A DNA stretch of 64,000 bases from positions 1,798,001 to 1,862,000 of the forward strand of contig NZ_JAFICD010000001.1 of the NCBI RefSeq assembly GCF_017833525.1, written 5' to 3'. Within the stretch, counting starts at the first letter, position 1, and each line of letters begins with the position of its first letter. Of the stretch, positions 19,956-42,442 are shown piece after piece. The notes beneath the pieces are model-generated. The model ran no database searches. It saw only the letters and a list, made by a program, of their open reading frames with translations, and was not told the DNA's origin. The DNA comes from Duganella sp. 1411. GTDB taxonomy: Bacteria > Pseudomonadota > Gammaproteobacteria > Burkholderiales > Burkholderiaceae_D. The position numbers were made by a program, and so were the translations under genes.

Positions 19956-19959
<4 letters not shown>

Positions 19960-20729
19960 AGCAAGGCGTTCAGCTCCACCTGCATCTTGATCAGCGCCGG
20001 CAGGCAGCGCTCCACCATTTGATCGAGCGGCATGCGGGCCGCGTGGACGCTGATGTTCATCGCCGCCACCACCTCGCCGCGAAAATTCTTCAGCGGGACG
20101 GCCATCGTGCGCAGCCCCAGCTCCAGCTCCTGGTCCACCAGCGCGTACCCCTGGGCCCGGGCGCGCGCGATCTCCAGCGCCAGACGCTCCTTGCTGACGA
20201 TCGTATGCTCGGTGATCTGCTCCAGCCGCACACGGGCCAGAAAACTCTCCAGTTGATCCGGCGGCAGGCTGGCCAGCAGCATGCGGCCATTCGCCGTGCA
20301 CCACGCGGGCACCCGCGTCCCCGGCTGCAGCGTCGCCGATACCAGCTGGCCGGCGCTGACGGCGGCCACGCACACCAGTTGGTCGTGATCGAGCACACCG
20401 GCCGATGCCGCCTCCCCCACCGAATACGCGAGCCGGTACAACAGCGGCTGCGCCAGACGCGGAAGCCGCGCCGAATGCAGATAGGATTGGCCGAGCCGCA
20501 GCACCATCGGCGTCAACGAAAACAGCTTGTTCTCGTGCCGCATATAGCCCAGATGCGTGAGCGTGATCAGGTAGCGGCGCGCCGCCGCCCGCGTCAGGCC
20601 GGTGCGCTCGGCCACCTCGGCGATACTCAGGCGGCTGCGCTCCTGGTCGAACGCTTCGATCACTTGCAGGCCTTTTTCGAGGCCGGCGATCATATCTCGC
20701 TTGGCGGGAGGGTCGATTCCAGTGCTCAT
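19956..20729 (-). CDS. IclR family transcriptional regulator, divergent from pcaH (PcaR/PobR-like)
   Basis: A 257-residue IclR protein. The winged HTH occupies about residues 10-75 (LSIAEVAERTGLTRAAARRYLITLTHLGYM) and the ligand-binding domain the rest, ending LPALIKMQVELNALL. The AARRYL segment is typical of the PcaR/PobR/CatR subgroup that senses aromatic-acid intermediates. The start at 20729 (MSTGIDPPAKRD) fits the family length; the frame opens at 20852 but would cover the divergent promoter. It probably controls pcaHGB-CD through the palindrome at 20762-20776 and is a paralogue of pcaR at 38960. Confidence 0.9.
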
Positions 20730-20757: not shown

Positions 20758-20780
20758 TATGCGCACAAATTGTGCGTATA
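20758..20780. promoter_or_regulatory. Palindromic operator candidate between the iclR-type gene and pcaH
   Basis: CGCACAA-A-TTGTGCG (20762-20776) is a perfect inverted repeat around one central base. It extends to 11-base arms (20758-20780) with one mismatch. It lies in the divergent promoter region 29 bases from the iclR-type start. IclR proteins bind such palindromes; the match to this regulator is inferred from position. Confidence 0.6.
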
Positions 20781-24860: not shown

Positions 24861-25883
24861 CTAAAAGCGGTGGTGTATCCCTACGCCGTAGAAGTTGATC
24901 GACGTCGCGGCCTTGCGTTGTGAGGCGTCCGCGTACAGGAACGTCCGCGTGGACAGGTTGTATTCGTAACCCACCCCTATCTGCTTGGTCGGCACGGCGC
25001 CATCGGGCGTCTTGCGGCCATAGCCGGCGAGCAGCGTTCCGGGACCGATATCCAGATTCGCCCCCACCACCCACGCCTTCGTAACGGAATTGACGGCCAC
25101 CGTATGATCCTGGTCCTGGCTTTGATAAGAAGCCATCAACTTCAGATCGCGCCGTGGCTGCACGGAAGCGGCCACCGACCACAAACGGGTCTCGGCGGCA
25201 TTGCGCTCGGACGCCAGCATCGCACCGAACATCCCCGCCTTGTACACCAGCGTCGCCGAATACGGATTGCTCGTCAACGGCGCGTTGGCCGCGTATTGCG
25301 GAGCCGCCGCCGTGCCACGTCCGATCAAGGCGGGGTTGCCGTTGGCCTCCTTGGTGGCGACGGTGACATTGAGCTGCAATCCCGCCACCTGCGGCGAATT
25401 GTAAAACACCGCATTGGAGAAACGGTTGGCCGACGAACCGGCCGGATCGAGCGGCTGGCTGTTATAACCCGCCACCATCAAGTCGGTTTCAAAACCGGCG
25501 GTGCTGGGCGTACCGCGAAACGGCTCGAACGCCACATTCGAGTCCTGATAGGCGGTCAACCCGCGCCCGACCCGCAGCGTGCCGAAATCGCCCTGAAGAC
25601 CCACGCGGCTCTGGCCCTGGAACAGCGGCCGCGATACCCCCTCAACCGTGCCGACGTCCGGATCGTAGCGGATCTCCAGCTGGAACAAGGCCTTCAGGCC
25701 ATTACCCAGATCCTCGACGCCCTTGAAACCGAGCCGGTTGTTATCGCGCCTGCCCTCGGTGAGCGCGCCGCCGGTCTTCTTCGACACACCGAGATCGATG
25801 TTGCCATACACCGTCACCGCCGACTGGGCTTGCGCCGCGCCGCCCGTTGCCAGCATCGCCAGCGCTAAAAACGATTTCTTCAT
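24861..25883 (-). CDS. Gram-negative porin (betaproteobacterial trimeric type)
   Basis: A 340-residue outer-membrane porin. The signal peptide is residues 1-19 (MKKSFLALAMLATGG to AQA). The mature start SAVTVYGNIDLGVSKKTGG and the motif NRLGFKGVEDLGNGLKALFQLE are diagnostic of the Burkholderiales porin family. A 16-strand barrel ends in the aromatic terminus GVGIHHRF. Its ATG overlaps the dctA stop by 4 bases, so it is translated with the dicarboxylate symporter. It probably supplies dicarboxylates to it across the outer membrane (inference). Confidence 0.93.
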   Translation of the reverse strand: MKKSFLALAMLATGGAAQAQSAVTVYGNIDLGVSKKTGGALTEGRRDNNRLGFKGVEDLGNGLKALFQLEIRYDPDVGTVEGVSRPLFQGQSRVGLQGDFGTLRVGRGLTAYQDSNVAFEPFRGTPSTAGFETDLMVAGYNSQPLDPAGSSANRFSNAVFYNSPQVAGLQLNVTVATKEANGNPALIGRGTAAAPQYAANAPLTSNPYSATLVYKAGMFGAMLASERNAAETRLWSVAASVQPRRDLKLMASYQSQDQDHTVAVNSVTKAWVVGANLDIGPGTLLAGYGRKTPDGAVPTKQIGVGYEYNLSTRTFLYADASQRKAATSINFYGVGIHHRF

Positions 25884-27145
25884 GCTTTACCCTTCCCGTT
25901 TAAAACCAGGTGCGCCTGCTCGCGATCGATATCCTTCTCCCACACCGCCACCACCACCGTGGCCACGCAGTTGCCCATTAAATTGCCTGCGGCGCGCGCG
26001 ATGCCAATGAACCAGTCCACCGACAGCACCAGCACCAGGCCCACCACCGGAATCGTCGGCATGGCCGTCAGCGTGGCCGCCAGAATCACGATGGCCGAAC
26101 CGGGCACGCCGTGCGCGCCCTTGGAGGTGATCAGCGCGATCGCCAGGATGGACAGCAGGTCGCCAATCGCCAGCGGCGTGTTGGTGGCTTGCGCGATGAA
26201 GACGGCGGCCAGCGTCAGGTAGATCGAGAACGCATCCAGATTGAACGAATAACCTGTGGGGATCACCAGCCCCACGGTGGAATCCTTGATGCCCATGTAC
26301 CTCAGTTTGCGCATCACCTGCGGCAGCACGCTGTCCGACGACGCGGTCCCCAGCACGATCAGCAGCTCCTCGCGCAGGTAGCCGACCAGTTTGAAGATGT
26401 TGAACCCGGCCGCCCGCAGAATCGCGCCGAGAATGACAAACACGAACACGATCACCGCGCCATAGAACAGCAACACCAGCATCGCCAGCTGCTTGAGCGA
26501 GCCGATACCGTATTTACCGACCGTGAATGCGATCGCGCCAAACACGCCCAGCGGCGCCAGCTTGATGATGAACGACATGCACTTGAAGAACGCGGTGGCC
26601 AGGCTGTCGATCAGCGTTGCCACCGGCTGCGCCTTATCGCCGATCAGCGACAGCGCGCAGCCGAATATCACCGAGAACAGCAACACCTGCAACACGTCGC
26701 CCGACGTGAAGGCGCTGACCACGGTGGTGGGAATCAGCTTGAGCATGAATTCGGCCAGGCCGGTCTTGCGCACCGCGTTGGCGTTGTCGACGTAGCCGCT
26801 CAACGAACTCGCATCGAGCGTGGACGCGTCGATGTTCATGCCCGCTCCCGGGTGGAACACGTACGCCAGCACGATACCGAGCAACAGCGCGATCGTCGTG
26901 ACGACTTCAAAATAGATCAGGGCCTTCAAGCCCACCCGTCCCACCTTGCGCAGTTCCCCGGCACCGTGGATGCCCTGCACCACGACGCAGAACACGATCA
27001 TCGGAACGATCATCTTGATCAATTTGATGAAGCCATCGCCCAGCGGCTTGAGACTGAGGCCGATGTCCGGGTATAACACCGCCAGCAATATGCCAGCGCA
27101 CATCGCCACAACGATCTGGCCAAACAGTGATTTGAAAAACCGCAT
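25880..27145 (-). CDS. dctA: C4-dicarboxylate:cation symporter (DctA type)
   Basis: A 421-residue inner-membrane DAACS-family transporter. It starts FFKSLFGQIVVAMCAGILLA, carries the VPMIVFCVV segment, and has the substrate-binding region TASSDSVLPQVMRK and LVIPTGYSFNLDAFSIYLTL. It imports succinate, fumarate or malate with protons or sodium. GGAGGG lies 7 bases before the start. It is co-transcribed with the porin and divergent from an RpiR-type regulator. An aromatic dicarboxylate or 3-oxoadipate substrate is conceivable given the pca context, but sequence alone favours DctA. Confidence 0.92.
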   Translation of the reverse strand: MRFFKSLFGQIVVAMCAGILLAVLYPDIGLSLKPLGDGFIKLIKMIVPMIVFCVVVQGIHGAGELRKVGRVGLKALIYFEVVTTIALLLGIVLAYVFHPGAGMNIDASTLDASSLSGYVDNANAVRKTGLAEFMLKLIPTTVVSAFTSGDVLQVLLFSVIFGCALSLIGDKAQPVATLIDSLATAFFKCMSFIIKLAPLGVFGAIAFTVGKYGIGSLKQLAMLVLLFYGAVIVFVFVILGAILRAAGFNIFKLVGYLREELLIVLGTASSDSVLPQVMRKLRYMGIKDSTVGLVIPTGYSFNLDAFSIYLTLAAVFIAQATNTPLAIGDLLSILAIALITSKGAHGVPGSAIVILAATLTAMPTIPVVGLVLVLSVDWFIGIARAAGNLMGNCVATVVVAVWEKDIDREQAHLVLNGKGKA

Positions 27146-28277: not shown

Positions 28278-29462
28278 TCAGACGCCCGGATCGCGCACCT
28301 TCTCTACCTTGTCGAACTCCACGTTGAAGAACGAGCCGCCCGTGGCCTCGGCCTTGCGGATATAAACCGTCTGCACGATGTCGCGCGTGCCGGCATCGAT
28401 GCTGACGGGACCGCGCACGCTGGTCCACGCCATGCCCTTCATCGCCGCCAGCAGCTTGTCGCCGTTGCTGTCGCCGGCCGTCTGCTTGAGCGCCTCGTAC
28501 AGCAGATGCATGCCGTCGTACGCGCCAACCGAATGGAAGTTGGGCCGCATTCCCTTGTTCGCCTTGCCGAACGCCTCGACATACGCCTTGTTCTCCGCCG
28601 ATGGATGCGCGGCCGAATAATGATGGCTGCTGACGACACCAGCGGCGGCGGGCCCGATGCTCGCCATCAGATCGTCGTCGAGCACATCGCCGGTGCAGAT
28701 CAGACGAATGCCCGCCGCCGCCAAGCCACGGTCGGTGAACTGCTTGAGCACCGCCGCCCCCTCGCCCGATGGAACGAACACGAACAGGGCATCCGGCTTC
28801 AAGTCCTTGACCTTGGCCAGGAAAGGCGCGTAGTCCGGATTGCGCAACGGCGAACGCAGGCTCTCCACCACTTTGCCGCCGCCTTCGTTGAAGTCCTTGA
28901 CGAACACCTTTTCCGCATCCAGGCCCGGCCCGTAGTCGCTCACCAGGGTCACCACGGTCTTCATCTTGTTTTTGGCGGCCCATTGCGCCATCGGCGCGGT
29001 CACCTGCGCCAGCGTGAATCCGGTACGCACGATATACGGCGAGCGTTGCGGAATCACCGACGTCGCGGCGGCCATCACGATCATCGGCACCTTGGCCTGC
29101 GTAGCCACCGGCGCGGCGGCGAAGGCCAGCGGCGTCAGGCCGAAGCCGGCCAGCACCTGCACCTTGTCGCGCGAGACCAGTTCCTGCGCCAGCCGCTTGG
29201 TGACATCCGGCGACACCCCGCCATCGTCCTTGAGGATGATTTCGACCTGGCGGCCGGCGACGGTGGCGCCGTTCTGCTGCATGAACAGCTTGACCGCCGC
29301 CTCGATCTGGCGGCCGGTGGAGGCGAACGGCCCGGACATCGGCACGATCAAGCCCACCTTCAGCGGTTCCGCGGCGGCGGCGATGGCCGGCAGCACGCCG
29401 GCCGACAGCGCGGCGGCGCCCAACAGGATGTGACGGCGATGCGTATTGATAAACTCTGGCAT
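28278..29462 (-). CDS. Branched-chain-type ABC transporter substrate-binding protein, van-linked
   Basis: A 394-residue periplasmic binding protein of the Peripla_BP_6 (LivK/HAA) family. The leader (residues 1-31) ends AAAAEP, and the domain begins LKVGLIVPMSGPFASTGRQIE. It lies 19 bases behind vanB, so it belongs to the vanillate operon and probably binds vanillate or a related aromatic acid. It is clearly paralogous to the protein at 41258-42442 along its whole length (shared KRLAQELV, AGFGLTP and the GPxSIDAxTRDIVQTVYxRK end). No permease genes are adjacent; LivHMGF at 32783-36141 is the likely shared translocator. Confidence 0.9.
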   Translation of the reverse strand: MPEFINTHRRHILLGAAALSAGVLPAIAAAAEPLKVGLIVPMSGPFASTGRQIEAAVKLFMQQNGATVAGRQVEIILKDDGGVSPDVTKRLAQELVSRDKVQVLAGFGLTPLAFAAAPVATQAKVPMIVMAAATSVIPQRSPYIVRTGFTLAQVTAPMAQWAAKNKMKTVVTLVSDYGPGLDAEKVFVKDFNEGGGKVVESLRSPLRNPDYAPFLAKVKDLKPDALFVFVPSGEGAAVLKQFTDRGLAAAGIRLICTGDVLDDDLMASIGPAAAGVVSSHHYSAAHPSAENKAYVEAFGKANKGMRPNFHSVGAYDGMHLLYEALKQTAGDSNGDKLLAAMKGMAWTSVRGPVSIDAGTRDIVQTVYIRKAEATGGSFFNVEFDKVEKVRDPGV

Positions 29463-32782: not shown

Positions 32783-33484
32783 TCAGGCCACCGACACCAG
32801 CCGATCGAGCTTGTCGCCATCGGCCAGCAGGCTGGCGCTATCCGAGTCGTGTACGATGCGGCCGCGATCGAGCACGATGGCGCGCTTGGTCAGCGACAGC
32901 GCCAGCCGCGCATGCTGCTCCACCACGATCACCGACATGCCCTCCTCCTCCACCAGCTTGCGGATCACGCGCACCAGCTCCTGCACAATGATCGGCGCCA
33001 GTCCTTCCATCGGCTCGTCCAGCAGCAGGATGCGCGGATTGGTCATCAGCGCGCGCGCGATGGCCACCATCTGCTGCTCGCCGCCGGACAACTGGTTGCC
33101 CATGTTGGCGCGGCGCTCATACAGGCGCGGGAAGATTTGATACACCTTCTGCAGGTTCCACGCGCCGGGACGGGCGACCACCGTCAAATGCTCCTCCACC
33201 GTCAGCGACGGGAACATATGCCGCTCCTGCGGCACCCAGCCCAGGCCCGAGCGCGATCGCTTGTGCGTGGGCATGCGCGCGATGTCGCCGCCGTCCCAGC
33301 GTATGCCGCCGCCGTGCAGGCGCGTCAATCCCATCAGCGTCACCAGCAGGCTGGTTTTGCCGACACCGTTGCGGCCCAACAGCGCCAGGCTGTCGCCTTC
33401 ATTCATCGTAAACGACACGTCTTCCAGCACGATGGACTCGCCGTAGCCGGCGGTGACTTTATCGAGCGCCAGTAACTCACGCAT
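32783..33484 (-). CDS. livF: Branched-chain-type ABC transporter ATP-binding protein LivF
   Basis: A 233-residue ATPase with Walker A LLGRNGVGKTSLL (about residue 36), signature LSGGEQQMVAIARAL and Walker B ILLLDEPMEGLAP. The sequence QLSGGEQQMVAIA and the length are characteristic of LivF. It overlaps livG by 8 bases and is the last gene before the terminator. In this context the Liv-type system probably imports aromatic acids or 3-oxoadipate rather than leucine, as it is encoded behind pcaIJF. Confidence 0.92.
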   Translation of the reverse strand: MRELLALDKVTAGYGESIVLEDVSFTMNEGDSLALLGRNGVGKTSLLVTLMGLTRLHGGGIRWDGGDIARMPTHKRSRSGLGWVPQERHMFPSLTVEEHLTVVARPGAWNLQKVYQIFPRLYERRANMGNQLSGGEQQMVAIARALMTNPRILLLDEPMEGLAPIIVQELVRVIRKLVEEEGMSVIVVEQHARLALSLTKRAIVLDRGRIVHDSDSASLLADGDKLDRLVSVA

Positions 33485-34235
33485 GTTCGGCCTCCCCCAG
33501 ATACACTTCCTTCACTCGCGGGTCCGCCGCGATCTCCTCCGGCGTTCCCTCTGTCAGCACCTTGCCGCCCACCATGACGGTGATGCGGTCGGCGAAGCGG
33601 AACACCAGGCCCATATCGTGTTCGATAAACAGCACCGTCACGTCGCGCGGCAGCTGCGCCAGCACTTCGAACAGCTCCTTGCTCTCGGCCGACGGGATGC
33701 CGGCCGCCGGCTCGTCCAGCAGCAGGATGCGCGGCTTGGTCGCCAGCGCCAGCGCGATCTCCACCAGCCGCTGCTTACCGTACGCCATGCTGCGGGTGAT
33801 GCTGTTGGCCTGGTCGGTCAGCTTCAAGGTCGCCAGCAGCTCCATCGCCTCGTCGATGACCTCGGGGTGGTTGGCCACCGTCTTGTACCAGACCGACTGC
33901 AGGCCGCGCCGCTCGCTGATGGCCAGCGCCACCGATTCCAGCACCGTCATCCCGGCGAACAGGGTGTTGAGCTGGAAGGTGCGCGTCATGCCGCGATGTA
34001 CCCGCTCGTGTTGCGGCAGATTGGTGATGTCCTCGCCGCCCAGATAGACCTTGCCGCTGCTGGGCAAGAAGCCGCCCGTCAGCAGATTGATGAAGGTGGT
34101 TTTTCCGGCGCCGTTAGGGCCGATCAGCGCGTGGCGCGCGCCGGGCTCGAAGGTCAGCGTGACGTCGCTGTTGGCGATGAATCCGCCCCAGCGCTTGCTC
34201 AGGCCCTCGGTGCGCAGTGTGATGTCCTGGCTCAT
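33477..34235 (-). CDS. livG: Branched-chain-type ABC transporter ATP-binding protein LivG
   Basis: A 252-residue ATPase with Walker A LIGPNGAGKTTFINLL (about residue 40). The variant signature MAYGKQRLVEIALAL replaces LSGGQ, as is usual in LivG, and Walker B is ILLLDEPAAGIPSAE. The C-terminal BCA_ABC_TP_C-like tail PRVKEVYLGE is present. It overlaps livM by 4 bases. It forms a heterodimeric ATPase with LivF. Confidence 0.92.
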   Translation of the reverse strand: MSQDITLRTEGLSKRWGGFIANSDVTLTFEPGARHALIGPNGAGKTTFINLLTGGFLPSSGKVYLGGEDITNLPQHERVHRGMTRTFQLNTLFAGMTVLESVALAISERRGLQSVWYKTVANHPEVIDEAMELLATLKLTDQANSITRSMAYGKQRLVEIALALATKPRILLLDEPAAGIPSAESKELFEVLAQLPRDVTVLFIEHDMGLVFRFADRITVMVGGKVLTEGTPEEIAADPRVKEVYLGEAEHA

Positions 34236-35278
34236 GCCTGCTCCTTACGGGATGGTTTGAAACGCTGTGCGAGCTTTTCCAGTCCGCCCAGGATGCCGCC
34301 GCGCGCGAACAGCACGATCAGCACCAGCAGCAGGCCGATATAGAACTGCCAGTAGGCCGGATTAAGGCCGGCGATATAGTCCTGCGCCACCATGAACACG
34401 GCGGCGCCGATCAACGCGCCGTACAGCCGCCCGGTCCCGCCCAGCACCAGCATGATCAACAGCTCCGCCGAGCGCGGAAAGCCCAGCGCGTCGAGGCCGA
34501 CGAACTGCGTGGTCTGCGCCAGCAGCGCGCCGGCCACGCCGGCGATGGCGGCGGCGGCGGTGAAGATGGCGATCAGGCGGCGATTGACGTTGACGCCCAG
34601 CGACGGCATGCGGCGCACGCCCTCGCGGATGCCGATCAGGCTCAGACCGAACGGCGACTTGACCACGCGGCGCAGCGCCACGAACAGGATGAACAGCACC
34701 GCAAAGCTGTACCAGAAAGCGACGGTGCCATTCAGGTCGAACTCGAAGACGCCGAACACCTTACCGACCATCATGCCGGACAGGCCATCGACGCCGCCGG
34801 TGATGAAGGATGCCTTGTTGGCCGCTTCGTGCAGCATCAGGCAGATGCCCATGGTGACCATCAAGCGGGTCAAATCCTGGCCGCGCACCACCAGGAAGGA
34901 GGTAATGAAGCCGAACAGGCCCGCCACCACCGCGCCGGCCAGCAGGCCGCTCAACGGCTCGCCCCAACCATGCACCGCCAGCAGGCCGGCGGTGTAGGCG
35001 CCCAGCCCGAAGAAGGCTGCGTGCCCCAGCGAGACGATGCCGGCGTAACCGAGGATCAGATCCAGCGACAGCGCGAACAGGCCCATGATCATGATCTGGC
35101 TGATCAGCACCAGATAACCGGGGAAGAAGAAATACGCGGCCACCGGCATCAGCCAGAAGACAATCTCCAACGGCTTCCAGCGGTCGTTCGGCAAATTCAG
35201 TTGGCGTTGCTGTAGTGGCGTCATGACGGGCTTTGCGACGGGAGCGGGTTTAACTGCGGTTTCGGTGAAGGCGTTCAT
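34232..35278 (-). CDS. livM: Branched-chain-type ABC transporter permease LivM
   Basis: A 348-residue inner-membrane protein with about nine hydrophobic segments. The LivM motif LDLILGYAGIVSLGHAAFFGLGAY lies near residues 75-98, and GIREGVRRMPSLGVNV is the cytoplasmic coupling region. An N-terminal cytoplasmic extension of about 35 residues is Pro/Lys-rich. It overlaps livH by 4 bases and pairs with LivH as the translocation pore. Confidence 0.92.
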   Translation of the reverse strand: MNAFTETAVKPAPVAKPVMTPLQQRQLNLPNDRWKPLEIVFWLMPVAAYFFFPGYLVLISQIMIMGLFALSLDLILGYAGIVSLGHAAFFGLGAYTAGLLAVHGWGEPLSGLLAGAVVAGLFGFITSFLVVRGQDLTRLMVTMGICLMLHEAANKASFITGGVDGLSGMMVGKVFGVFEFDLNGTVAFWYSFAVLFILFVALRRVVKSPFGLSLIGIREGVRRMPSLGVNVNRRLIAIFTAAAAIAGVAGALLAQTTQFVGLDALGFPRSAELLIMLVLGGTGRLYGALIGAAVFMVAQDYIAGLNPAYWQFYIGLLLVLIVLFARGGILGGLEKLAQRFKPSRKEQA

Positions 35279-36141
35279 GCTTTCCTCCGCACCAGGCCAG
35301 CCGGGAAGACGATCAGCAGCACCACCATCAACGCGTAGATGACGAAGGCGCCCACTTCAGGCACATAGTATTTGCCGGCGACGTCGAACACGCCCAGTAT
35401 CAGGGCGGCCAGCAAAGGCCCCTTGATGGTGCCGGCGCCGCCCACCGCCACCACCAGCAGGAAGTAGACCATGTATTTGATCGGGAAGGTGGGGTCGAGG
35501 CCCAGCACGTCGATGCCAAGGCCGCCGCCCAGGCCGGCCAGGCCGGAGCCCAGCGCGAAGGTCAGGCTGAACACCAGGCTGACGTTGATGCCGAGGCCCG
35601 CCGACGCGGTCTGATTGTCGACCGAGGCGCGGATCTGCGCGCCGAAGCGGGTGCGTTCGATCAGCAGGCCAAGCGCGATGGTGATCAGCACCACGACGCC
35701 GATCAGGAACAGCCGGTAGGCGCCGACGTCGAGGCCGAGCAGCGACACCTGCCCGCGCAGCCAGTCCGGCAGCGTGACCGGCTGCTGCGTCGGTCCGAAA
35801 AAGTAGGTGGCGGCGGCGACCGACATGAAGGTCAGGCCGATGGAGAACAGCACCTGATCGAGGTGGCTGGCCTTGTACAGGCGGCGATACAGCAAGCGCT
35901 CCAGCACCAGCCCCACCACGGCGGACGCGATGAACGCCAACGGCAGCGATGCCAGGAACGGCACGCCAAGGCGCGACAGCACCGTCACGCTGACATACCC
36001 GCCCAGCATCGCGAACGCGCCGTGGGCGAGGTTGATAAAGTTCATCATCCCCATCGTGACCGACAGGCCGACGCTGATGAGGAAAAGGAGGCTGCCATAG
36101 GCGATGCCGTCAAACAGCACGCCGGCCATATTCGCTAGCAT
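35275..36141 (-). CDS. livH: Branched-chain-type ABC transporter permease LivH
   Basis: A 288-residue inner-membrane permease. MMNFINLAHGAFAMLGGYVSV near residue 35 and the motif IRASVDNQTASAGLGINV near residue 180 are typical of LivH. It starts 98 bases after the end of pcaF on the same strand. No terminator is seen in the gap, so it is likely transcribed with pcaIJF. First gene of livHMGF; the matching binding proteins are encoded elsewhere in the window (28278 and 41258). Confidence 0.92.
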   Translation of the reverse strand: MLANMAGVLFDGIAYGSLLFLISVGLSVTMGMMNFINLAHGAFAMLGGYVSVTVLSRLGVPFLASLPLAFIASAVVGLVLERLLYRRLYKASHLDQVLFSIGLTFMSVAAATYFFGPTQQPVTLPDWLRGQVSLLGLDVGAYRLFLIGVVVLITIALGLLIERTRFGAQIRASVDNQTASAGLGINVSLVFSLTFALGSGLAGLGGGLGIDVLGLDPTFPIKYMVYFLLVVAVGGAGTIKGPLLAALILGVFDVAGKYYVPEVGAFVIYALMVVLLIVFPAGLVRRKA

Positions 36142-36238: not shown

Positions 36239-37441
36239 CTACACCCTTTCGATCACCATCGCGATGCCCTGCCCCACGCCGATGCACATGGTGCACAGCG
36301 CGTAACGTCCGCCGGCGCGCTGCAGCTGATAGGTGGCGGTGGTGACCAGGCGCGCGCCACTCATGCCCAGCGGATGACCCAGCGCGATCGCGCCGCCGTT
36401 GGGATTCACGCGCGGATCGTCGGCGCTCAAGCCAAGTTCGCGCAGCACGGCCAGGCCCTGCGCTGCGAAGGCTTCGTTCAATTCGATCAGGTCCATCTGC
36501 TCCAGCGTCAGGCCGGTCTGGCGCAGCAGCTTTTGCACCGCCGGCACCGGGCCGATGCCCATCACGCGCGGTGCCACGCCGGCGGTGGCCATGCCGACGA
36601 TGCGCGCCAGCGGCTTGAGGCCGTGTTTTTTCACGGCGTCGCCGCTGGCGATCAACAGCGCGCAGGCGCCGTCGTTGATGCCCGACGCATTGCCTGCCGT
36701 GACGCTGCCGTCCGGGTGCACCACGCCTTTGAGCTTGGCCAGCGCCTCCAGCGTCGTCGCGCGCGGATGCTCATCCTGCGCGAAGACGACCGGATCGCCT
36801 TTTTTCTGCGGAATCGAAACCGGCACGATCTCGCGCGTGAAGATGCCTTCTGCGATCGCGGCGGCGGCCCGCTGCTGGCTCGCCAGCGCGAACGCATCCT
36901 GGTCCGCGCGGTTGATGCCGAAGTCTTGCGCGACGTTTTCCGCCGTCTCCGGCATCGTATCGACGCCATAGGCTTCCTTCATCTTCTTGTTGACGAAGCG
37001 CCAGCCCATCGTCGTATCCTGCAGCGAGGCGCTGCGCGAGAAGGCCGAATCGGCCTTGCCCATGACGAACGGCGCGCGCGTCATGGATTCGACGCCACCG
37101 GCGATCATCAGGCAGGCGTCGCCGGCCTGGATCGCGCGCGCCGCCGTGCCGACGGCATCCATGCCGGAGCCGCAAAGCCGGTTGATGGTGGTACCGGGCA
37201 CCTGCTCCGGCAGCCCCGCCAGCAACGCCGACATGCGCGCGACGTTGCGGTTATCCTCGCCGGCCTGGTTGGCGCAGCCATAAATCACGTCGTCCACCTG
37301 ATCCCACTGCACGCCGGGATTACGATTCATCAGTTCGCGCAGCGGCACCGCGCCCAGGTCGTCCGCGCGCACGTCCTTCAGCGCGCCGCCGTAGCGGCCG
37401 ATCGGGGTGCGGATCGCGTCGCAGATATAAGCTTCGTTCAT
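36239..37441 (-). CDS. pcaF: 3-oxoadipyl-CoA thiolase
   Basis: A 400-residue thiolase that cleaves 3-oxoadipyl-CoA to succinyl-CoA and acetyl-CoA, the last step of the pathway. The acyl-enzyme Cys is in [19 protein letters not shown] near residue 90. The conserved His lies in [17 protein letters not shown], and the second catalytic Cys in the C-terminal [10 protein letters not shown]. The start [19 protein letters not shown] matches PcaF closely. It lies 12 bases behind pcaJ. Confidence 0.95.
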
Positions 37442-37453
37442 ATTCCGTTCCTC

Positions 37454-38125
37454 TTAAATTCTGTTGATGGCGACGGCCGGCGGCAGCAATTTTGTGCCGG
37501 TGGCCGCCTGCAGTTCTTCAAACGTCAGCCCGGGCGCCATTTCGCGCACCGCCAGGCCGTCCGGCGTCACATCCAGCACGGCCATATCGGTGTAGATGCG
37601 GTTGACGCAGGCGACGCCGGTCAGCGGATAGGTGCACTGGCCGACGATTTTGCTCTCGCCGGTCTTGGTCAGATGATCCATCATCACGAACACCTGCTTG
37701 GCGCCGATCGCCAGATCCATCGCGCCGCCCACCGCCGGTATCGCGTCCGGCGCGCCGGTGTGCCAGTTTGCCAGATCGCCGCGCTCGGACACCTGGAAAG
37801 CGCCCAGCACGCACACGTCCAGATGGCCGCCGCGCATCATCGCGAACGAATCGCCATGGTGGAAATACGCGCCGCCGGTCAGCAAGGTGACCGGCTGCTT
37901 GCCGGCGTTGATCAAATCTTCGTCCTCCTCGCCCGGCGCGGGCGCGGGGCCCATGCCCAGCAGGCCGTTTTCGCTGTGCAGGAACACCTCGCGCTCGGCC
38001 GGCAGGTAATTGGCGACCTTGGTCGGCAAGCCGATGCCCAGGTTGACGTAGGCGCCCTCGGGGATGTCCTGCGCCACGCGGGCCGCGATCTGGTCGCGGC
38101 TATATCGATTGGTCACGTTACTCAC
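37454..38125 (-). CDS. pcaJ: 3-oxoadipate CoA-transferase subunit B
   Basis: A 223-residue beta subunit of the succinyl-CoA:3-oxoadipate CoA-transferase. The catalytic Glu is in the SENGLLGMGPAP motif near residue 51, and VNLGIGLPTKVANYLP near residue 27 is typical. It overlaps pcaI by 4 bases. Scot-type subunits for acetoacetate are similar, but the pcaF neighbour fixes the role. Confidence 0.94.
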   Translation of the reverse strand: MSNVTNRYSRDQIAARVAQDIPEGAYVNLGIGLPTKVANYLPAEREVFLHSENGLLGMGPAPAPGEEDEDLINAGKQPVTLLTGGAYFHHGDSFAMMRGGHLDVCVLGAFQVSERGDLANWHTGAPDAIPAVGGAMDLAIGAKQVFVMMDHLTKTGESKIVGQCTYPLTGVACVNRIYTDMAVLDVTPDGLAVREMAPGLTFEELQAATGTKLLPPAVAINRI

Positions 38126-38787
38126 GCCGCCTCCTGCACCACGCGTTGAACGAAGATGCCCGGCGTGACGATCACTTCCGGATCGAGTTCGCCCAGCGGC
38201 ACCACCTTGCGCACCTGCGCGATCGCCACTTTGGCAGCCATCGCCATGATCGGGCCGAAATTGCGCGCGGTTTTGCGGTACACCAGATTACCCCAACGGT
38301 CGCCCTGCAGCGCCTTGATCAGCGCGAAGTCGGCGTGGATCGGCGACTCCAGCACGTAGTGGCGGCCGTCGATCAGGCGCGTCTCCTTGCCTTCTGCCAG
38401 CAGCGTGCCGTAGCCGGTCGGCGTGAAGAAGCCGCCGATGCCGGCGCCGGCGGCGCGGATGCGCTCCGCCAGATTGCCCTGCGGGGTCAGTTCCAGCTCG
38501 ATCTCCCCGGCGCGGTACAGCGCGTCGAAATGCTGGGAGTCGGCCTGGCGCGGGAACGAGCAGATGATCTTGCGTACCCGCTTGGCCTTGAGCAGCGCGG
38601 CCAGCCCGGTTTCGCCGTTGCCGGCGTTGTTGTTGACGATGGTGAGCTCGCGCGCGCCCTGCGCGATCAGCGCGTCGATCAGCGCCGAGGGCATGCCCGC
38701 GTTACCGAAGCCGCCGATCATGACGGTCGCGCCGTCATGAATGTCGGCCACCGCGCGCTCCAGTGATTCAAAAGTTTTATCGATCAT
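38122..38787 (-). CDS. pcaI: 3-oxoadipate CoA-transferase subunit A
   Basis: A 221-residue alpha subunit. The CoA-transferase glycine motif GATVMIGGFGNAGMPSALIDAL lies near residues 19-40, followed by VNNNAGNGETGLAALL. It activates 3-oxoadipate with CoA from succinyl-CoA. First gene of the pcaIJF-liv unit and divergent from pcaR. The PcaR box at 38849-38882 lies 62 bases upstream. Confidence 0.94.
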   Translation of the reverse strand: MIDKTFESLERAVADIHDGATVMIGGFGNAGMPSALIDALIAQGARELTIVNNNAGNGETGLAALLKAKRVRKIICSFPRQADSQHFDALYRAGEIELELTPQGNLAERIRAAGAGIGGFFTPTGYGTLLAEGKETRLIDGRHYVLESPIHADFALIKALQGDRWGNLVYRKTARNFGPIMAMAAKVAIAQVRKVVPLGELDPEVIVTPGIFVQRVVQEAA

Positions 38788-38848
38788 GTCTATGCCTTGA
38801 TGATTCGTCGCCTGCCGGTCGTTTTAGTTATCGTGCCTCGCCTGTCTT

Positions 38849-38882
38849 GTGCGATAATCGAACTAATGATTGATTACCGCAC
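38849..38882. promoter_or_regulatory. PcaR box in the pcaI/pcaR divergent region
   Basis: GTGCGATAATCGAAC starts the site and the complementary half GATTACCGCAC ends it, giving an 11-base inverted repeat with one mismatch and a 12-base spacer. The first 15 bases match the P. putida PcaR box (GTTCGATAATCGCAC, as I recall it) in reverse complement with one difference. A sister site is at 41080-41113 (26 of 34 bases identical). Confidence 0.8.
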
Positions 38883-38959
38883 AGCCAGTGTAGAACTTGC
38901 GCCTGCCGTGGTCAAGAAAAACCGCCAATTAAATCCACCATCTGCATTAAAATCACGCC

Positions 38960-39802
38960 ATGTCAAAAGCCACTCCCCCCGAATCCAGCGCCGCCGCCGA
39001 AGCGGACGACGAGCGCGAGCCCACCATCGCCGAGCAAATCGACGCGATGACCGACCCCAGTTTCATGACCTCCCTGGCGCGCGGACTGGCGGTGGTGCAG
39101 GCTTTCAGCGATTCGCGCAAGCCGCAAACCATCGCCAACATCAGCCAGAAAACCGGCATTCCGCGCGCCGCCGTGCGGCGCTGCCTGCACACGCTGCGCG
39201 AGCTGGGTTATGTGGACGCGGAGCTGAATAACTTCTCGCTGCGCCCCAAGGTGCTCACGCTCGGCTACTCCTACCTGTCGTCGACGCCGCTGACGGTGTC
39301 GGCCCAGCCATACCTGAACGACATCAGCCGAACGCTCAACGAATCGAGTTCGATGGCGGTGCTGGAGGACGGCGAAGTGCTGTACGTGGCGCGCGCGTCC
39401 ACCGCGCGGGTGATGTCGGTGGCGCTCAACACGGGTAGTCGGCTGCCGGCCTATTGCACCTCGCTGGGCCGTGTGATGCTGGCGCACCTGCCGCCGGATG
39501 AACTGGAGCGGTACCTCGCCAAAACCAAGCTGCGCGCGATGACGGAGAACACGGTGACCAATCCCAAGCGCCTGCGCGAGATCCTGGCCGACGTGCGCCG
39601 CGACGGTTATGCCATCAACGACGAGGAACTGGAGCTGGGCCTGCGTTCGATCGCGGTGCCGGTGCGCGGCGCGTCGGGCCAGGTGCTGGCGGCGCTGAAC
39701 GTGGGCGCGCAGGCGGCACGCGTCAGCGTCAAGCAGCTGGAGAAGGAGTTCTTGCCGGTGCTGGTGCGCGGTGCGCAGGAATTGGCGATTCTGCTGCCGT
39801 GA
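38960..39802 (+). CDS. pcaR: IclR family regulator PcaR of the beta-ketoadipate pathway
   Basis: A 280-residue IclR protein. An acidic N-terminal extension (residues 1-30) is followed by FMTSLARGLAVVQAFSD and a winged HTH (ANISQKTGIPRAAVRRCLHTLRELGYV), which is close to the PcaR/PcaU type. The ligand domain includes SSMAVLEDGEVLYVARAST. It is divergent from pcaIJF with a PcaR box between. It probably uses 3-oxoadipate as inducer, like Pseudomonas PcaR, and also controls the porin and binding protein at 39962-42442 through a second box. Confidence 0.92.
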   Translation: MSKATPPESSAAAEADDEREPTIAEQIDAMTDPSFMTSLARGLAVVQAFSDSRKPQTIANISQKTGIPRAAVRRCLHTLRELGYVDAELNNFSLRPKVLTLGYSYLSSTPLTVSAQPYLNDISRTLNESSSMAVLEDGEVLYVARASTARVMSVALNTGSRLPAYCTSLGRVMLAHLPPDELERYLAKTKLRAMTENTVTNPKRLREILADVRRDGYAINDEELELGLRSIAVPVRGASGQVLAALNVGAQAARVSVKQLEKEFLPVLVRGAQELAILLP

Positions 39803-39829
39803 TTTAGCGGGGGCCGGCGGCGGCGCCGG

Positions 39830-39940
39830 CATGGCGGATTACGCTGCGCTAATCCGCCCTACGTGTCTCCCCGATTAACCGCGACTTGCGCCTTCCACGG
39901 TTCCACGTAGGGCGGATTAGGCGGCACGCCGTAATCCGCC
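39830..39940. repeat. Dispersed palindromic repeat, two copies in inverted orientation (locus 3)
   Basis: Copy one is 39830-39865 (CATGGCGGATTACGCTGC to CCCTACGTG). Copy two is 39904-39940 (CACGTAGGGCGGATTAGGC to CCGCCACG), reverse-oriented after a 38-base spacer. It lies between the convergent pcaR and porin genes. It belongs to the same family as 12295-12392 and 24799-24838. Confidence 0.85.
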
Positions 39941-39961
39941 ACGAGCCGCCAACACCGCCCT

Positions 39962-41053
39962 TTAGAAGCTGTGACGCAAACCAGCCATCACACCGTTCTG
40001 GGTTTTGCCCACGCCGACGGTGCCGCCGGCATCCAGCGCGACGGCCGACAGGCCGCTGTTCTTCATGCGGCCGATACCGCCGTAGACCGCCGTACGCTTG
40101 GAGAAGTAATAGGTCAGCCGCGCCACCAGCAAGGTGACGTCCGCGCTGCTGTTCTTCACGTCACGCTTGGCGACCTGCGTATCGAGCGTGGTCAATGGCG
40201 TGACCGGATAGCTCAAACCCAGGAAGTACAAATCCGATTCCGTCAGGCCGGTGGCCGCGCGCGTGGTGCGATCGACCACGCCGGCGCCGATCTTGCCCTC
40301 GCCGACCTTGAAGTAGCCGTTGACGGTGATGCGCTTGTCGCTGTTGTCGCTGCTCGTCAGGCCGCCGGCCGCGCCGGTGTTCCCGTACATGATGTCATAG
40401 GACGCGTTCAAACCATAAGCCGGAACCTCGTAGCCGAACAAGCCGGTGACCTGGCGGCAGGCCTTGGAATTGCCGGCCACTTCGCCGGCGCAGCCGGTGG
40501 CGGCCGGCCCGCCGGCGGCCGACGAGTCGCGCCCGGTGCTGTAGGTGGCGCCGACGACGAAGTTATTGAAGTTACCCAGGTAGCTGATGGAGTTGTCGCT
40601 GCGCGCGTTCGGCAGATACGGGTCGATACTGCCGATCGCGAACAGGTTCGGGCCCATCACGTCCGCCTTCTGGGTGGCGATGTAGGTCATATTAATCTGG
40701 CGTCCCACCGACACGGTGCCGAAAGCGCCCTTCAAACCCACCGACGCCTGGCGGCCGAACAGACGGTTGCCCTGCTGGCTGGTGCCGGTGTCCATCGCCA
40801 GGCCGGCTTCCAGCGTGAAGACCGCCTGCAGTCCGTTGCCCAGGTCCTCGACGCCGCGGAAGCCGATGCGCGACGGGAAGGAACCCGTCAACGACGGCAC
40901 CTTGGTCACGGAATCGCCGGCGGCGTTGACATTGGTGACGTGGACAAGGCCGGTGTCGAGCAGGCCATACACGGTCACGTTGCTTTGCGCCATCGCTGCG
41001 GATGCGCCCATGCCAGCCATCAGCGCCACGGCGCAACGGATACTGTTTTTCAT
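39962..41053 (-). CDS. Gram-negative porin under PcaR-box control
   Basis: A 363-residue betaproteobacterial porin. The signal peptide is residues 1-22 (AVALMAGMGASAAMAQ). The mature start SNVTVYGLLDTGLVHVTN and the motif SRIGFRGVEDLGNGLQAVFTLE are diagnostic, and it ends in MAGLRHSF. A GCAGEVAGNSKAC loop holds a likely disulfide pair. A PcaR box lies 27 bases upstream of the start, so it is probably the outer-membrane entry for aromatic acids or 3-oxoadipate. Confidence 0.93.
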   Translation of the reverse strand: MKNSIRCAVALMAGMGASAAMAQSNVTVYGLLDTGLVHVTNVNAAGDSVTKVPSLTGSFPSRIGFRGVEDLGNGLQAVFTLEAGLAMDTGTSQQGNRLFGRQASVGLKGAFGTVSVGRQINMTYIATQKADVMGPNLFAIGSIDPYLPNARSDNSISYLGNFNNFVVGATYSTGRDSSAAGGPAATGCAGEVAGNSKACRQVTGLFGYEVPAYGLNASYDIMYGNTGAAGGLTSSDNSDKRITVNGYFKVGEGKIGAGVVDRTTRAATGLTESDLYFLGLSYPVTPLTTLDTQVAKRDVKNSSADVTLLVARLTYYFSKRTAVYGGIGRMKNSGLSAVALDAGGTVGVGKTQNGVMAGLRHSF

Positions 41054-41079
41054 TACTGTCTCCTGTTATTTTATTGGAT

Positions 41080-41113
41080 GTGCGATTATCGAACAATAGG
41101 TTGTTAATCGCAC
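41080..41113. promoter_or_regulatory. PcaR box between the porin and the Liv-type binding protein
   Basis: GTGCGATTATCGAAC followed by TTGTTAATCGCAC. The first 15 bases are the exact reverse complement of the P. putida PcaR box as I recall it. The outer GTGCGATTA/TAATCGCAC arms form a 9-base perfect inverted repeat. It lies in the divergent region and could control both genes. Confidence 0.85.
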
Positions 41114-41257
41114 ATAAATTCGATACTATGATTGTCGAGGGGTGTTGTCAAGAAACAGAGCGGGCCCGTGAATCAACAATGCGACAACAAAGCGTCTGCC
41201 GCGTGTCGCTTTTGATAGTCCCTCATAGACAAAAACAGAACCGAACAGGAGACCGGC

Positions 41258-42442
41258 ATGACCATGAAAAAATTTGTAAATATTGCGACACTTGCGACAC
41301 TCGCCGCCCTTGCCGTGACTATCGCCCCGCTGGCGCGGGCCCAGGACACGATCAAAGTCGGCGTCATCGCCGCGTTCTCCGGCCCCTTCGCCGACTACGG
41401 CAAGCAGATGGAAGGCGGCATCAAGGCCTACATGGCGCAGAACGGCGCCACGGTGGCGGGCAAAAAGATCGAGATCATCGTCAAGGATACTACCGGACCT
41501 TCGCCGGAAATAGCCAAGCGCCTGGCGCAGGAGTTGGTTATACGCGACAAGGTCGACTTCCTGGCCGGCTTCGGCCTTACTCCGGAGGCGCTGGCGGTGG
41601 CGCCAATCGCCGAACAGGCCAAGAAGCCGATGATCATCATGAACGCGGCCACCTCCATCATCACCACCAAGTCCAACTACATCGCGCGCTTCTCCATGAC
41701 GCTGCCGCAGGTCTCCGCGCCGATGGCCACATGGGCGGTGAAGAACAACATCAAGAAGGTCGTCACCCTGGTGGCCGACTACGGCCCCGGCATCGATGCC
41801 GAGGCCGCGTTCAAGAATGAACTGGCCAAGGGCGGCGGCACGGTGACCGAATCGATCCGCGTCCCGCTGCGCAATCCGGAGTTCGCGCCCTACATCCAGC
41901 GCATCAAGGATGCCAAGCCGGACGCGGTGTTCATCTTCGTGCCGGCCGGCGAACAAAGCATCGCCTTCATGAAGGGCTACCGCGAGCGCGGCCTGGCCGA
42001 AGCGGGCATCAAGGTCATCGCCACCGGCGACCTGACCGACGACCACGTGCTGCCGGCGATGGGCGACGCCACGCTGGGTGTGATCACCACCTTCCACTAT
42101 TCGGCGGCGCACAAGTCGCCGGAGAACGCGGCGTTCCTGAAAAGCTTCGCGGCGGCCAACCCGAATGGCGGGCGGCCCAATTTCATGGCCGTGGCGGCGT
42201 ATGACGGCATGGCCGCGATCTACGAAGTGGTCCGCAAGCTGAATGGCAAGATCGATGGCGACAAGGCGATGGAGATCCTCAAGACCATCAAGTTCAATAG
42301 CCCGCGCGGCCCGATCGCGATCGACCCGCAAACCCGCGACATCGTGCAGACGGTGTATGTGCGCAAGGTGGAGAAGATCGGCAATGAAGTCTACAACGTC
42401 GAATTCGACCAATTCGCCAATCAGAAAGACCCGGGCAAATAA
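41258..42442 (+). CDS. Branched-chain-type ABC transporter substrate-binding protein, pca-linked
   Basis: A 394-residue Peripla_BP_6 protein. The signal peptide is about residues 1-29 (ATLAALAVTIAPLARAQ). The mature start DTIKVGVIAAFSGPFADYGKQ is followed by the AGFGLTPEALAVAPIAEQ segment. GGAG lies 8 bases before the ATG at 41258, with another ATG two codons in. It is a full-length paralogue of the van-linked protein at 28278-29462. With a PcaR box upstream and LivHMGF in the pcaIJF operon, it is the probable receptor for protocatechuate, 4-hydroxybenzoate or 3-oxoadipate. Confidence 0.92.
   Translation: MTMKKFVNIATLATLAALAVTIAPLARAQDTIKVGVIAAFSGPFADYGKQMEGGIKAYMAQNGATVAGKKIEIIVKDTTGPSPEIAKRLAQELVIRDKVDFLAGFGLTPEALAVAPIAEQAKKPMIIMNAATSIITTKSNYIARFSMTLPQVSAPMATWAVKNNIKKVVTLVADYGPGIDAEAAFKNELAKGGGTVTESIRVPLRNPEFAPYIQRIKDAKPDAVFIFVPAGEQSIAFMKGYRERGLAEAGIKVIATGDLTDDHVLPAMGDATLGVITTFHYSAAHKSPENAAFLKSFAAANPNGGRPNFMAVAAYDGMAAIYEVVRKLNGKIDGDKAMEILKTIKFNSPRGPIAIDPQTRDIVQTVYVRKVEKIGNEVYNVEFDQFANQKDPGK

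Follow-up and report, generated by a model that had tools for sequence, protein, structure and literature searches.

The closest described counterpart of the locus analyzed here is the PcaR regulon of Pseudomonas putida, in which an IclR-family regulator, PcaR, controls pcaIJ through an operator printed as GTTCGATAATCGCAC in the accessible text of PMC12455658. The present locus resembles that regulon in its IclR-family PcaR, in its operator and in the predicted control of pcaIJ. Among the operators of IclR-family regulators, tandem palindromes with 18-22 nt between their centres have been reported in 94 orthologous groups, and LivKHMGF-type transporter genes co-occur in IclR regulogs (Suvorova and Gelfand 2021, accessible text of PMC8222616). 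Bidirectional promoters that share a -10 have also been described, with starts that are most often 18 bp apart, distances of 10 and 23 bp being common as well (Warman et al. 2026, accessible text of PMC12825309); according to the abstract of that paper, nothing is known about how such promoters are controlled. Furthermore, one of the periplasmic proteins that bind benzoate derivatives in R. palustris, RPA0985 (the protein of structure 4evs), is strongly stabilised by 4-hydroxybenzoate (available portion of PMC3223731).

In the window, i.e., the whole stretch of 64,000 nucleotides of Duganella sp. 1411 DNA that was analyzed, we consider it likely from sequence comparisons that pcaIJF-livHMGF and a divergent porin/binding-protein pair form a single regulon, linked by a PcaR tandem operator that is present in two copies.

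Gene content and the two 34-base sites

The genes follow the order livF-livG-livM-livH-pcaF-pcaJ-pcaI (minus strand), pcaR (plus strand), porin (minus strand) and binding protein (plus strand). A previous reading of the sequence alone had already placed pcaIJF-livHMGF, a PcaR-family regulator, a porin and a binding protein at these positions, and profile matches confirmed the placement. The genes and the two predicted operators are as follows.

32783..33484, minus strand: livF-type ATPase (profile match)
33477..34235, minus strand: livG-type ATPase (profile match)
34232..35278, minus strand: livM-type permease (profile match)
35275..36141, minus strand: livH-type permease (profile match)
36239..37441, minus strand: pcaF (TIGR02430)
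37454..38125, minus strand: pcaJ (TIGR02428)
38122..38787, minus strand: pcaI (TIGR02429)
38849..38882, minus strand: predicted PcaR operator 1 (pcaI/pcaR), oriented toward pcaI, with two 15-bp palindromes whose starts are 19 bp apart
38960..39802, plus strand: pcaR, IclR-family regulator (TIGR02431; best PDB match 8eju)
39962..41053, minus strand: porin (Porin_4, profile match)
41080..41113, minus strand: predicted PcaR operator 2 (porin/binding protein), oriented toward the porin gene, with the tandem layout of operator 1
41258..42442, plus strand: periplasmic binding protein (Peripla_BP_6), HAAT-type, of the benzoate-derivative binder type (profile and structure matches)

The sites read GTGCGATAATCGAACTAATGATTGATTACCGCAC (38849-38882) and GTGCGATTATCGAACAATAGGTTGTTAATCGCAC (41080-41113). 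The sequence-only reading had counted 26 of the 34 bases as identical, and a comparison by eye gave the same number. It had also recognized the exact P. putida 15-mer in the second site and a version with one difference in the first; GTTCGATAATCGCAC is indeed found at 41080-41094 on the minus strand, at the end of the second site, and the first site ends in GTTCGATTATCGCAC (38849-38863, minus strand), which differs from it at 1 position. The inverted architecture that had been noted is seen at both sites, with GTGCGRT...ATCGCAC ends. In each site the 15-mers start 19 nt apart, as expected for two IclR-type palindromes with centres 18-22 nt apart, and the second palindrome is imperfect. The PcaR of Burkholderia xenovorans is called LysR-type in the accessible text of PMC3572157, where the site GTTCGCTAAACGAAT is given; this site looks like an IclR-type PcaR palindrome.

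PcaR scored 326.7 bits against TIGR02431, above the curated cut-off of 284.75, and its best solved relative is 8eju (Transcription regulatory protein, Pca regulon). In an alignment, four of the five residues by which P. putida PcaR is said to contact succinate are retained (Y151, T177, S240 and N257), and S259 is replaced by G. The same genome has three further PcaR/PcaU/PobR-family matches, one of which lies in the window (19959-20729). This second regulator (306 bits, 42% identical to PcaR) is divergent to a pcaH-like gene, and the gap between the two contains a different near-perfect palindrome, TATGCGCACAAATTGTGCGTATA (20758-20780); the upper and lower pathways therefore seem to have separate IclR switches. 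Just upstream of the third PcaR-family gene of the genome there is an inverted pair, TGCGCTAATCGC / GCGATTAGCGCA (L022, ~1425-1460), which is unlike the PcaR box.

The binding protein has its best relative among named organisms in Duganella sp. CF517 (95%). Its predicted model has a mean pLDDT of 86.5, and structural alignment gave 56% identity to 4ey3/4eyg and 46% to 4evs (Z 50.9-52.4). These closest solved relatives were crystallised with 4-hydroxybenzoate (4evs, 4ey3) and vanillate (4eyg), and the protein thus resembles benzoate-derivative binders. The operon of a related genome (L088) runs in the order pcaIJF, pcaB-like, pcaD-like, pcaC-like and liv, the pcaB, pcaD and pcaC names being taken from reading the translations. 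Because of the nearest solved binders and this operon, our comparisons support protocatechuate-type acids as the presumed cargo of the module.

Other features were also noted in the window. A second porin gene and a gene for a DctA-like C4-dicarboxylate transporter (24861-27145) follow the upper pca genes, and beyond the liv genes lies the gene for another binding protein of this family, 54% identical to the first (28278-29462); the 34-base box is present at neither. The genes for PcaR and the porin converge, and between their ends (39832-39941) lies an inverted repeat pair, REP-like or a terminator, with 17-bp arms at 39849-39865 / 39904-39920 and 12-bp arms at the edges. There was no Rfam match at gathering scores for a structured RNA in 38700-41300.

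Occurrence of the box within the genome and across the family

The sequence-only reading had proposed a scan of the genome, and in the 7.63-Mb genome a degenerate 34-mer (at most 3 mismatches) matched only these two places; the reversed pattern gave 0 matches. The 34-mer was derived from the two sites themselves and the scan is partly circular, and therefore the weight rests on other genomes. The 15-mer GTTCGATWATCGCAC likewise has zero-mismatch matches only at these two places in this genome. A matrix was trained on the pcaI-pcaR region of each of 40 loci, site 1 of the window being part of the training set; with it, sites 1 and 2 scored 49.3 and 36.2, and the best non-overlapping place in the window scored -6.2 (20733). 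Among 145 genomes of the family (this one counted), 11 have the strict site, reversed controls gave 0, and 49 have a PcaR match at E <= 1e-60; such a match was found in all 11 genomes with the strict site. Based on the genome scans, the reversed controls and the matrix scores against Markov sequence, chance or a repeat artefact was rejected as the origin of the sites.

The 40 loci consisted of the window and the 39 best of 50 PcaR matches, with the 10 weakest omitted, and one extra stretch was fetched, a porin/binding-protein pair on its own contig. Within this training set, the box was found in 37 of the 40 pcaI-pcaR intergenic regions (34.9-58.6 bits), always reading toward pcaI, and the other three regions lacked it (L093, L104 and L106). 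The maximum score in 60 runs of 3 kb of random Markov sequence was 8.1. When 11 more pcaR loci were scored, 4 turned out to repeat training loci, and all 7 new ones (L249, L250, L254 and L256-L259) had the box, with scores of 26.9-58.2.

The matrix, trained on the pcaI-pcaR regions only, was then applied to the porin/binding-protein regions at a box threshold of 12 bits, with 80 named binding-protein loci kept of the 160 found. The box was present, always in one orientation, in all 35 loci in which a porin gene with more than 60% identity lies beside the binding-protein gene; these loci span several Oxalobacteraceae genera and are related by descent, so that neither this count nor those that follow represent independent events. 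Close binding-protein orthologues (at least 77%) without such a porin had the box in 9 of 19 cases, 8 of these 9 with no pcaR in the fetched locus; three of the 10 without the box immediately follow pcaR and share its direction. Among more distant orthologues, the box was found in 0 of 26. The sequence-only reading had extended the PcaR regulon to the porin and the binding protein, and this pattern, with the box in 35/35 loci with the porin and 9/19 without, supports the extension.

A PcaR orthologue was found in 10 of the 12 genomes tried that have a binding-protein gene without a linked porin. PcaR is present with the box-bearing L143, L165, L167, L179 and L182, and the genomes of the box-less L168, L171, L177, L189 and L192 do have PcaR as well (L192 is just below 77% and outside the 19); no PcaR match was found in the genomes of L170 (box present; MAG) and L191 (no box). 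In the genome taken to hold both L184 and L089, the box is found between pcaI and pcaR (51.7, L089) and not at the binding-protein gene (L184), and it is present neither at L180 nor in the pcaI-pcaR region of the genome that L180 is taken to share. The best orthologues from further PcaR genomes (L111-L124), several of which are the same genomes as loci in the 80-locus set, have the box in 7 of 14 cases, L121 scoring only 12.3, and there is no box in L125-L134, which are 10 binding-protein paralogues or more distant orthologues. In these sequence comparisons, the porin-linked form is regular and the detached form follows no simple rule.

Thirty porin loci were also scored, one of them without upstream sequence. 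Where the porin is linked to both pcaR and the binding protein, the box is present in all 13 cases (window included), with scores of 26.3-43.7, whereas 15 of the 16 unlinked porin paralogues score below -6. A porin in a related genome (L244), with no pcaR or binding protein in its locus, carries a weaker box (~1267-1300, score 24.5); by eye, TTGACG-17-TAGAAT is followed by the box after 6 nt, in the same promoter-operator order. In six Herbaspirillum-type genomes (L226 and L228-L232), the distance between the box and the porin start is 358-431 nt, and direct control of the porin is therefore less plain there.

Promoter geometry

A consensus scan of 38780-41270 (at least 9/12) detected exactly two sigma-70-like sites, those of pcaI and the porin (shuffles gave a mean of 0.5), and both stand just before an operator. 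The candidate promoter of the binding-protein gene, at 8/12, falls below this threshold.

38887..38915, minus strand: predicted pcaI promoter, TTGACC-17-TACACT; its -10 ends 4 nt before operator 1
41101..41129, plus strand: predicted binding-protein promoter, TTGTTA-17-TACTAT (8/12); the -35 falls within operator 2, and the -10 overlaps that of the porin promoter on the opposite strand
41123..41151, minus strand: predicted porin promoter, TTGACA-17-TAGTAT; its -10 ends 9 nt before operator 2

If transcription is assumed to start 7 nt after the -10, operator 1 spans ~ -2 to +32 of pcaI, and operator 2 spans ~ +4 to +37 of the porin gene. The predicted start sites of the porin gene (~41116) and the binding-protein gene (~41136) are 20 bp apart on opposite strands, and that of pcaI is at ~38880.

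In the porin direction, a promoter of at least 9/12 was found in all 35 distinct porin loci (shuffled flanks, 3.1%), and each has TTGACA with a -10 16-17 nt on. The binding-protein direction reached at least 8/12 in 24 of these 35 loci (shuffled, 12.0%), a count that is partly circular in that the -35 is part of the box. At 35 distinct loci scored in the pcaI direction, TTGAC occurred in 32 and at least 9/12 was reached in only 22 (shuffled, 1.6%). Box-bearing loci without the porin had TTGAC in 0 of 13 distinct cases, and 6 of the 13 kept a binding-protein promoter of at least 8. A promoter in the pcaR direction with its -35 in operator 1 was unsupported, with 3 of 35 loci reaching 8/12 compared with 8.5% of the shuffled sequences.

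We aligned the window with 24 porin/binding-protein intergenic regions in which the gap was at most 450 nt (L158 was left out). Identity to the window was 0.91 for the box, 0.93 for each palindrome and 0.77 for the 4-nt spacer; it was 0.98 for the shared -10, 1.00 for the porin -35, 0.51 for the spacer between these and 0.29 for the binding-protein leader. The symmetric -10, ATA[CA]TAT, was present in all 36 porin-linked rows, among which one place is repeated, and in none of the 16 unlinked rows (repeats included). At the sequence level, the arrangement is that of a bidirectional promoter, i.e., a symmetric -10 that is read on both strands and flanked by a -35 on either side, and the porin and binding-protein genes are predicted to be started from one such promoter with a common symmetric -10.

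Proposed regulation and comparison with known systems

The best reading of the locus is that of a putative module for the uptake of benzoate derivatives under the control of PcaR. The two palindromes of an operator would be occupied by two PcaR dimers (a tetramer). Without inducer, PcaR would obstruct the start regions of pcaI and the porin gene and mask the binding-protein -35. A dicarboxylate of the pathway (3-oxoadipate, known from Pseudomonas) would lift the repression, and the porin, binding protein, permeases, ATPases and lower-pathway enzymes would then be produced jointly, such that the uptake of 4-hydroxybenzoate/protocatechuate-type acids would rise with the capacity to burn them.

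A place just after the -10 is a typical repression position. The predicted operators are downstream of the -10 of pcaI and of the porin gene, and over the -35 of the binding-protein gene, which suggests repression. For one PcaR protein, a box over or after the -10 has been tied to repression (accessible text of PMC12455658), and a PcaR of a Ralstonia strain was inferred from fitness data to repress its pca operon (accessible text of PMC12543098). Because of this operator position and these two reports, repression of both divergent units without inducer appears most likely, although the PcaR of P. putida is capable of activation as well as repression. It is rather unlikely, in our judgement, that PcaR binds both sites mainly as an inducer-dependent activator, as at Pseudomonas pca promoters. 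The PcaR proteins of P. putida and P. stutzeri do switch between repression and activation with the operator position (PMC12455658, in part), and P. stutzeri fails to grow on 4-hydroxybenzoate when pcaR or pcaD is mutated (PMC2907835, in part), but here good -35/-10 pairs of pcaI and the porin gene precede the operator, a position that is linked to repression for one PcaR protein in the accessible text of PMC12455658. We also suggest, tentatively, that one IclR tandem operator might act as a switch on the bidirectional promoter and set the ratio of porin to binding protein. From its place on the -35 of one gene and on the first bases transcribed from the other, PcaR would keep both polymerase orientations off the common -10, and where the porin is absent the promoter would have become one-way.

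The remaining alternatives concern which genes and which proteins belong to the regulon. The box is kept without the porin at 9/19 close binding-protein orthologues and is far from the porin start in the six Herbaspirillum-type genomes, as it would be if only the binding-protein gene were a PcaR target and the porin a divergent bystander. However, the box lies over the predicted first transcribed bases of the porin gene, TTGACA is found at 35/35 porin loci while TTGAC is absent at 13/13 porin-less loci, and the box is present at 13/13 linked porins and missing at 15/16 unlinked paralogues; we regard the bystander role as improbable. Similarly, the three further family members matched in this genome raise the idea that another PcaR/PcaU/PobR-family paralogue binds these sites. 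Of their loci, the two examined (19959-20729 and C1:982748, not the contig 10 member) have no box (best scores -6.2 and -10.9) and have other palindromes nearby, whereas the box adjoins and co-occurs with this PcaR. Binding by a paralogue is therefore judged very unlikely.

In the literature on PcaR and porins, as far as accessible, no report of porin regulation by PcaR was found, apart from a porin-like gene listed in a pca operon of P. putida (accessible text of PMC5897751). Porin entry under PcaR is therefore not wholly unprecedented; the porin here, in contrast, is of the Porin_4 type and divergent. A review of aromatic regulation in Betaproteobacteria (PMC6449761) mentions PcaR once and porin never in its accessible text. 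In a word search, "porin" and "Oxalobacter" were absent from the main text of PMC8222616, the supplementary tables of which may predict this regulon. Those tables excepted, the accessible literature on PcaR, porin, Herbaspirillum IclR and RegPrecise yielded no report of a link between PcaR, porin and binding protein.

The two matching sites probably let one regulator control both the last steps of aromatic breakdown and entry through the porin and the binding protein. This predicts that the beta-ketoadipate metabolism of Oxalobacteraceae is coupled via one regulator to its own outer-membrane and periplasmic uptake. A likely ligand class can also be named for an ABC transporter that is otherwise called branched-chain amino acid or urea type. 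Furthermore, the intergenic region offers a compact, conserved and naturally varied bidirectional promoter for testing repressor control of both directions.

The P. putida PcaR operator reportedly lies on the -35 and -10, going by the title of a 1999 paper by Guo and Houghton, whereas the operator here is predicted to follow the -10 of pcaI and of the porin gene. Uptake also differs from that in P. putida in that it relies on a liv-type ABC system, served by a binding protein of its own. The centres of the palindromes, 19 nt apart, are spaced like those of IclR tandem operators (accessible text of PMC8222616). The binding protein has close structural relatives in the benzoate-derivative binding proteins of R. 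palustris (4ey3/4eyg/4eyk, 4evs); no PcaR link was found for these in the accessible text of PMC3223731, whereas here a predicted PcaR operator lies upstream. As in the promoters of PMC12825309 (accessible text), the -10 is symmetric and the predicted starts are ~20 bp apart on opposite strands; the difference from those promoters, as described there, is an IclR-type operator that lies to one side and overlaps both outputs. Regulator, operator and tandem arrangement all belong to known kinds, and the locus is an extension of a known circuit and not a new type of system, in which the freshest points would be the PcaR operator at a predicted bidirectional promoter and the one-way version of this promoter at porin-less loci.
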